Shown here: piece by piece, positions 31,080 through 33,184 of the stretch | Layout: every line of letters starts with the position of its first letter | Position numbering within the stretch: position 1 is the stretch's first letter | NCBI RefSeq assembly: GCF_900199205.1 | Contig: NZ_OBMJ01000001.1 | Location: forward strand, 3,661,001-3,725,000 | Direction: 5' to 3' | From: Streptomyces sp. 1331.2 | GTDB lineage: Bacteria; Actinomycetota; Actinomycetes; Streptomycetales; Streptomycetaceae | DNA: 64,000 nucleotides | Notes under the pieces: generated by a model | Database searches by the model: none | What the model saw: only the letters and a program-made list of their open reading frames with translations | What the model was told of the DNA's origin: nothing | Position numbers and translations under genes: made by a program

Positions 31080-31531
31080 GGGGTCCAGGCTACTCATCCA
31101 CAGGTAATGGATGTAAGAGGGCTGAGCCCATTACTCGAAATCCTGAGCGGTGTCGTTCGTCCGCTCTGCGCCCACAGCCGTTCGGAGGCGTGTGAAGAAT
31201 TTCTCATGCACAGGCCTCGGAAGAGGTAATCCCAGGTCAGCAGGTTGACGGTGGGGCGATCGTCGGGTTATCCACAGGGACGTCCACAGGGGTGTCCACA
31301 GCTTTGCGGCAGTTCTCCACAGGACGCGGGCGGTCATCCACACCCCCTGTGGATAACCGCCTTGGCGCAAGGGTGTCCGGCGCTTTAGCGTGGGCTCTCC
31401 GCCCGACACTCCCACCGCCCCCGGCGTCCGATTTGTCGGAGCCGTGGCGTACAAAGAGGAGCGGATCCGCTCCACCCAGCCACCGGCAAGGCCCGCTCCA
31501 ACTCGCACCACTCGCTGATCGGGGAACACGC
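31080..31531. other. dnaB upstream region with DnaA-box cluster
   Basis: The 452-base gap holds no credible gene. Its main content is the DnaA-box cluster at 31268-31356 and one further near-box at 31094-31102. A TTGACG at 31245-31250 lies 17 bases before the first box and may be the -35 of a dnaB promoter. Confidence 0.6.
31268..31356. promoter_or_regulatory. Cluster of DnaA boxes upstream of dnaB
   Basis: Perfect TTATCCACA boxes occur at 31268-31276 (+) and 31348-31356 (-). One-mismatch boxes occur at 31292-31300 (GTGTCCACA, against TTGTCCACA), 31313-31321 (TTCTCCACA) and 31334-31342 (TCATCCACA), with a two-mismatch site at 31280-31288. That is six boxes within 89 bp. Confidence 0.85.
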
Positions 31532-33184
31532 GTGACCGGCCCCCAGTACGACGACCACGACGCCCCGCCGCCGGAGGAGGACTGGCAGACCGCCGAGGAT
31601 CCCTTCCCGGCCGGCGCCTTCGACGACGCACCCTTCCCGGACGGCCCCGGCGACCGGCTCCCGGTCCCCCGCGGCCGCGGCGGCCAGGGCGGTCAGGGGG
31701 GCGGCCAGGGCGGCAACCGCGACGGCAACCGCGACGGCTTCCAGAAGGGCGGCTTCCAGGGCGGCAAGGGCGGCCGCAACGGCTCCGGTCGTGAGGGCGG
31801 CCAGCGGGACGGCGGCTGGCAGCGCCGTGGCGAGGGCGACGGCGAGGGCGGCGCGGACGGCTTCGAGCGCGTCCCCCCGCAGGACCTCGCCGCCGAGCAG
31901 TCCGTCCTCGGCGGCATGCTGCTCTCCAAGGACGCCATCGCCGACGTGGTCGAGGTGCTCAAGCCCGCCGACTACTACCGGCCCGCGCACGAGCTGATCC
32001 ACGGCGCGATCCTCGACCTCTACGCCCGCGGCGAGCCGGCCGACCCGATCACCGTGGCCGGCGAGCTGACCAAGCGCGGCGAACTGCAGCGGGTCGGCGG
32101 CGCCCCGTACCTGCACACCCTGGTCAACTCCGTCCCGACCGCGGCCAACGCCGAGTACTACGCCCAGATCGTCCACGAGCGCGCGGTGCTGCGCCGCCTC
32201 GTCGAGGCCGGCACCCGGATCGCCGGGATGGGCTACGCGGCCGAGGGCGACGTGGACGAGATCGTCAACGCCGCCCAGGCCGAGATCTACGCGGTCACCG
32301 AGCAGCGCACCAACGAGGACTACGCCCCGCTCGCCGACATCATGGAGGGCGCCCTCGACGAGATCGAGTCGATCGGCTCCCGCAACGGCCAGATGTCCGG
32401 CGTGCCGACCGGCTTCGCCGACTTCGACCAGCTCACCAACGGGCTGCACCCCGGCCAGATGATCGTCATCGCGGCCCGTCCCGCGATGGGCAAGTCCACG
32501 CTCGCGCTGGACTTCGCCCGGGCCTGCTCGATCCACCACAAGCTACCGAGCGTGATCTTCTCGCTCGAAATGGGGCGCAACGAGATCGCCATGCGCCTGC
32601 TGTCCGCCGAGGCCCGGGTGGCGCTGCACCACATGCGCTCCGGCAGCATGACGGACGACGACTGGACCAGGGTCGCCCGCCGGATGCCGGACGTCAGCGA
32701 GGCACCGCTGTTCATCGACGACTCGCCCAACCTGTCGATGATGGAGATCCGCGCCAAGTGCCGCCGGCTCAAGCAGCGCAACGACATCAAGCTGATCGTC
32801 ATCGACTACCTCCAGCTGATGCAGTCCGGCGGCTCCCGCCGGGCCGAGAACCGCCAGCAGGAGGTCTCGGACATGTCCCGAAACCTCAAGCTGCTGGCCA
32901 AGGAGCTGGAAGTCCCCGTCATCGCGCTCTCCCAGCTGAACCGTGGCCCCGAGCAGCGCACCGACAAGCGGCCGATGGTCTCCGACCTGCGCGAGTCCGG
33001 CTCGATCGAGCAGGACGCCGACATGGTCATCCTGCTGCACCGCGAGGACGCCTACGAGAAGGAGTCCCCGCGGGCGGGCGAGGCCGACCTGATCGTCGCC
33101 AAGCACCGTAACGGTCCCACCGCGACCATCACGGTGGCCTTCCAGGGCCACTACTCGCGCTTCGTCGACATGACCCGGGACTGA
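31532..33184 (+). CDS. dnaB: Replicative DNA helicase
   Basis: About 550 residues from a GTG with GGGGA upstream. A poorly conserved N terminus contains a Gly/Arg/Gln/Asn-rich insertion (about residues 45-105, with GGNRDGN and GGFQGG repeats). Next come the DnaB N-terminal primase-interacting domain (VPPQDLAAEQSVLGGMLL) and the RecA-like motor with Walker A RPAMGKST (K321), Walker B VIDYLQL (D425) and DMVILLHRED. No intein is present. It is longer than the roughly 490 residues I recall for S. coelicolor, owing to the insertion. The ORF extends upstream through the DnaA boxes, but that part is not coding. Confidence 0.96.
   Translation: MTGPQYDDHDAPPPEEDWQTAEDPFPAGAFDDAPFPDGPGDRLPVPRGRGGQGGQGGGQGGNRDGNRDGFQKGGFQGGKGGRNGSGREGGQRDGGWQRRGEGDGEGGADGFERVPPQDLAAEQSVLGGMLLSKDAIADVVEVLKPADYYRPAHELIHGAILDLYARGEPADPITVAGELTKRGELQRVGGAPYLHTLVNSVPTAANAEYYAQIVHERAVLRRLVEAGTRIAGMGYAAEGDVDEIVNAAQAEIYAVTEQRTNEDYAPLADIMEGALDEIESIGSRNGQMSGVPTGFADFDQLTNGLHPGQMIVIAARPAMGKSTLALDFARACSIHHKLPSVIFSLEMGRNEIAMRLLSAEARVALHHMRSGSMTDDDWTRVARRMPDVSEAPLFIDDSPNLSMMEIRAKCRRLKQRNDIKLIVIDYLQLMQSGGSRRAENRQQEVSDMSRNLKLLAKELEVPVIALSQLNRGPEQRTDKRPMVSDLRESGSIEQDADMVILLHREDAYEKESPRAGEADLIVAKHRNGPTATITVAFQGHYSRFVDMTRD

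Follow-up and report, generated by a model that had tools for sequence, protein, structure and literature searches.

A conserved array of predicted DnaA boxes at the dnaB promoter of Streptomyces and its likely role as a DnaA operator

The control of replication initiation outside oriC is poorly known in actinomycetes. In the 64,000-nucleotide stretch of the Streptomyces sp. 1331.2 chromosome analyzed here (the window), sequences resembling binding sites for the initiator DnaA are crowded into the non-coding DNA that precedes dnaB, the gene for the replicative DNA helicase. This raises the question of whether these sites serve dnaB itself, the neighboring gene, or the chromosome at large, either as a store for DnaA or as an origin. 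DnaB loci were compared across the genus (31 genomes) and the family (81 genomes, 17 genera), together with further regions.

The dnaB gene occupies 31532..33184 on the plus strand, with a GTG start at about 31532 that we infer; its product matches the Pfam DnaB N and C domains with E values of 3.9e-34 and 3.7e-108. A divergent MATE transporter gene begins at or before 31097, so that the array region is non-coding. Within 31268-31356 (89 bp), five sites match TTRTCCACA exactly or differ from it at one base, and a sixth differs at two. Five predicted boxes lie on the plus strand: box 1, a perfect TTATCCACA (31268..31276); box 2, the weak ACGTCCACA (31280..31288; acgTCCACA, two mismatches); box 3, GTGTCCACA (31292..31300; gTGTCCACA, one mismatch); box 4, TTCTCCACA (31313..31321); and box 5, TCATCCACA (31334..31342). 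Box 6, on the minus strand at 31348..31356, is again TTATCCACA and is the box closest to the dnaB promoter. Boxes 5 and 6 form an inverted pair, 14 bp start to start, which is also found in the order and in part of the class. These positions bear out the preliminary description, which reported six boxes, two of them perfect and opposite in orientation.

The same description held that such a density is not due to chance, and the simulations agree. The whole window has eight sites with at most one mismatch to TTRTCCACA, five of which fall in the array, and in 150 simulated windows (first-order Markov, with the window's composition) no 89-bp segment held more than two. The exact motif occurs 41 times in the 8.43-Mb genome, and its dense groups (three or more boxes, or two with several near-matches) are at oriC, upstream of dnaB and at two other places; this count considers exact matches only, with the groups picked by inspecting the match list.

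Conservation in relatives points the same way, and the boxes keep a near-fixed register across the family, at 0, 12, 24, 45 and 66 bp on the plus strand and 80 bp on the minus strand. Allowing up to two mismatches in strict register, box 1 is present in 91/107 family loci, box 2 in 53/107, box 3 in 82/107, box 4 in all 107, box 5 in 104/107 and box 6 in 102/107, the last being perfect in 97. The strict register is missed in 24 of the 107 loci, owing in some to 1-bp shifts and in two genera to a layout of their own. Across the alignment of 102 family loci, the mean major-base frequency is 0.96 for the four strong boxes and 0.80 for the two weak ones, compared with 0.68 for the DNA between boxes and 0.56 for the upstream non-coding DNA; the alignment was anchored on the inverted box, which favors that box in this measure, whereas the other boxes were not anchors.

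Outside the array, three more box-like sequences were noted. The first, TCATCCACA at 31094..31102 (plus strand), lies in the conserved block TCATCCACAGGTAA, overlaps the start of the MATE gene and is present in nearly all genus loci (mean major-base frequency 0.95 over 31094-31107). The second, TTCTTCACA at 31191..31199 (minus strand), is found in most genus loci, and the third, TCATGCACA at 31204..31212 (plus strand), is part of the conserved block TTTCTCATGCACAG (0.90 over 31200-31213). In addition, a third family-conserved block, CCCAGGTCAG at 31231-31240, falls in the stretch that separates the MATE gene from the array and is not a DnaA box.

Immediately downstream of the array, two conserved column blocks have the appearance of a promoter. 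A predicted -35 element, TTGGCG, lies at 31362..31367 and a predicted -10 element, TAGCGT, at 31386..31391, both on the plus strand and separated by an 18-bp spacer. In 25/28 loci from genera of the family, TTGn lies at an offset of 14 from the inverted box. Counted from the start of that box, the -10 pattern TAnnnT follows at 37 or 38 bp in 27 of these 28 loci and in 12/13 loci from the order's other families, and is nearly absent from the rest of the 90 bp examined in both sets; outside the order it has this distance in 5 of the 14 loci having the inverted pair. In the family alignment, the mean major-base frequency of the -35 and -10 elements is 0.86, against 0.61 for the spacer. A generic sigma-70 scan gave no promoter above its cut-off here, and the predicted promoter is based on conservation. 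A different promoter had been proposed at the outset, in which TTGACG (31245-31250), which 17 nt separate from box 1, would be the -35 and box 1 would coincide with the -10. That candidate was rejected, as the hexamer is poorly conserved (0.57); the conserved promoter instead lies 5 bp beyond box 6.

The boxes stop about 5 bp upstream of the predicted -35, clear of both conserved promoter elements. If transcription starts about 12 bp after the beginning of the -10, the inverted box would span about -50 to -42, a region where activators commonly sit, and its distance from the predicted -10 is activator-like. We favor, with moderate confidence, the reading that the array serves the dnaB promoter as an operator through which DnaA raises dnaB transcription. 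Here, DnaA would first occupy the two perfect boxes, and the weaker boxes that lie evenly phased between these would allow a short DnaA nucleoprotein complex to form. This complex would terminate at the inverted box and, when free DnaA is plentiful, touch RNA polymerase and increase transcription of dnaB. Helicase supply would thereby be tied to initiation capacity.

Support for this comes from mycobacteria, where DnaA binds upstream of dnaB both in vitro and in vivo, and where this region is among the five most strongly DnaA-bound in M. tuberculosis and M. smegmatis (PMC7738170). Moreover, the I282T variant of M. tuberculosis DnaA shows reduced binding upstream of dnaB, and this mutant is unique in under-expressing dnaB (PMC7738170). 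The mycobacterial site (Rv0057 region; PMC7738170) resembles the present one as a DnaA-binding region upstream of dnaB within the same class, and most class loci examined here have box clusters at this place. They differ in that DnaA binding has been demonstrated there, whereas in the window's family it is predicted; the regular six-box array of the family, and the constant spacing of the inverted pair from the -10 in family and order, are described here. A more distant likeness is provided by Caulobacter, from another phylum, where dnaB is described as having predicted DnaA boxes upstream, as DnaA-dependent in expression and as a member of the DnaA regulon (Hottes 2005, as cited in PMC8203912).

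The same operator could also work with the opposite sign, so that DnaA would repress dnaB and provide negative feedback on helicase supply. DnaA does act as a repressor of dnaA itself in several bacteria (PMC8203912), and the inverted box is so near the -35 that DnaA bound there could get in the way of RNA polymerase. However, the boxes stop short of the -35 and leave the conserved promoter elements clear, and in M. tuberculosis lower DnaA binding accompanies lower, not higher, dnaB mRNA (PMC7738170). Repression is consequently considered unlikely. The activating sign is itself taken from a single mycobacterial mutant whose effect on dnaB may be indirect. In this organism we infer it, as we do the occupancy of the boxes by DnaA, the sequence in which they fill and any role of ATP. 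The earlier suggestion that helicase supply is coupled to DnaA-ATP is supported as regards DnaA, through promoter geometry, conservation and the mycobacterial binding and expression data; its ATP component is conjectural.

Beyond the family, the exact array gives way to boxes that vary in number and spacing. In 40 loci outside the order, the mean is 2.9 boxes per 600 bp, where 0.12 would be expected; two or more boxes lie upstream of dnaB in 32 of these loci and fewer than two in the other eight. Continuity from family to class is provided by these boxes and by the inverted pair and the TAnnnT distance, which the family shares with its order and with some of the class. As controls, dnaB paralogues (n=17, mostly on other contigs) had no boxes in the 700 bp scanned except for one stray box at one locus, and the nearly box-free serS loci outside the family show that the background of the box scan is low. 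When the exact pair TTRTCCACA-N5-TGTGGAYAA was sought in the genomes of all species, the matches listed were mostly from Proteobacteria, where the pair is frequent and generally intergenic, with flanking genes of varied kinds. The inverted pair alone is not diagnostic, since the Proteobacterial pairs among the matches listed are not beside dnaB. With DnaA boxes conserved at dnaB across the class, DnaA very probably controls helicase supply, as the mycobacterial data on binding and expression also suggest.

As the MATE gene diverges from the same intergenic region, the boxes might be thought to act for it and not for dnaB, and the conserved box-like sequence at 31094 does overlap its start. Yet boxes are kept whether the upstream neighbor is the MATE gene, rplI or neither, and at least 20 class and order loci retain them with no MATE gene detected upstream. 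In addition, the fixed geometry of the boxes is relative to the dnaB promoter, making a role for the transporter gene very improbable.

These findings also bear on the proposal that the cluster is a DnaA reservoir near oriC, of the kind represented by datA, the clusters of B. subtilis or D78 of S. coelicolor, with its adjacency to dnaB incidental. Several consensus boxes outside oriC are what such a site would have, and several strong boxes are indeed predicted 38 kb from oriC. Chromosomal DnaA-box clusters of S. coelicolor repress untimely initiation (PMC5742627), and the array could serve as operator and titration site at once. A pure titration site, however, needs no tie to any one promoter, whereas throughout the family and the order this cluster keeps a constant spacing from the promoter of dnaB. 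The cluster is also indifferent to the identity of the upstream neighbor and follows dnaB when it moves: in one genome (G107) dnaB is 369 kb from dnaA and four boxes are still present. E. coli datA likewise is a DnaA-box cluster outside oriC, but it is not the promoter operator of a replication gene and hydrolyzes DnaA-ATP with IHF (PMC5742627). Titration as the main function thus appears unlikely.

Box number and density had also suggested an origin-like function, that is, a secondary replication origin or a helicase-loading site. The A + T content of the intergenic region (0.364) is close to that of oriC (0.362), its best 30-bp A + T window is similar to that of oriC, and GC skew at the dnaB site is too weak to inform on a second origin. 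Against this, the dnaA-dnaN context is absent, and there are six boxes in 89 bp, not many boxes over several hundred bp beside dnaA or dnaN. For comparison, about 18 sites within one mismatch are spread over oriC, 38 kb away. An origin at dnaB is accordingly very unlikely.

As an operator, the array would have consequences beyond this locus. A class-conserved DnaA operator at dnaB with a defined promoter geometry would turn a single mycobacterial observation into a general, testable circuit, and the array supplies the exact bases to change in non-pathogenic laboratory strains of Streptomyces.

Besides oriC (dnaA at C1:3654284 in contig coordinates) and the dnaB site 38 kb from it, dense groups of boxes occur beside crgA and between pheA and serS. 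The first (C1:3638587-3638803) lies between crgA and a convergent rhomboid gene, just 3' of crgA. Of 30 loci sampled over the class, 20 have two or more boxes in the 700 bp that follow crgA, as against 2 of 30 upstream. The mycobacterial DnaA site between Rv0010c and Rv0011c appears to have a counterpart here, because Rv0011c is crgA and boxes downstream of crgA are widespread; the crgA-proximal boxes are the probable counterpart. That site had been stated to be without an obvious one (PMC7738170), and the crgA-linked boxes offer a model for it.

The pheA-serS cluster (C1:3502254-3502634) has a different distribution: all four loci from the window's family have it, and the 26 remaining loci lack it. 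In the sample examined it is confined to the family, in contrast to the dnaB cluster, which is a further point against a titration site at dnaB. S. coelicolor is likewise said to have non-oriC DnaA-box clusters near oriC, named H69, H24 and D78, of which D78 has a published function and reportedly limits initiation; the present genome has three such clusters too. From the cosmid names, we presume that H69 corresponds to the crgA-rhomboid site, H24 to dnaB and D78 to the pheA-serS cluster, which is probably D78. If H24 is indeed the dnaB cluster, the cluster itself has already been reported in a relative.

A wider reading, offered tentatively, joins the dnaB operator with the boxes near crgA: both would be ancestral elements of a single DnaA circuit in Actinomycetes. 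One would set helicase supply at dnaB and the other DnaA availability or division timing at crgA, with dnaB serving as a readout of free DnaA by way of the fixed box-promoter geometry.

Several further observations were made along the way. Upstream of dnaA, two DnaA boxes 12 bp apart (C1:3656139-3656159) read TTGTCCACA on the plus strand and TTACCCACA on the minus strand, an arrangement that would fit autoregulation of dnaA. Far from oriC, two exact boxes in the same orientation and exactly 18 bp apart occur at four places (C1:2415891, 3065524, 5035507 and 5146088). Finally, dnaB carries an in-frame insert in several relatives within the genus (four loci), all of which keep DnaA boxes near dnaB. 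The insert is probably an intein, and in the one locus tested (L041) it matches a LAGLIDADG domain.
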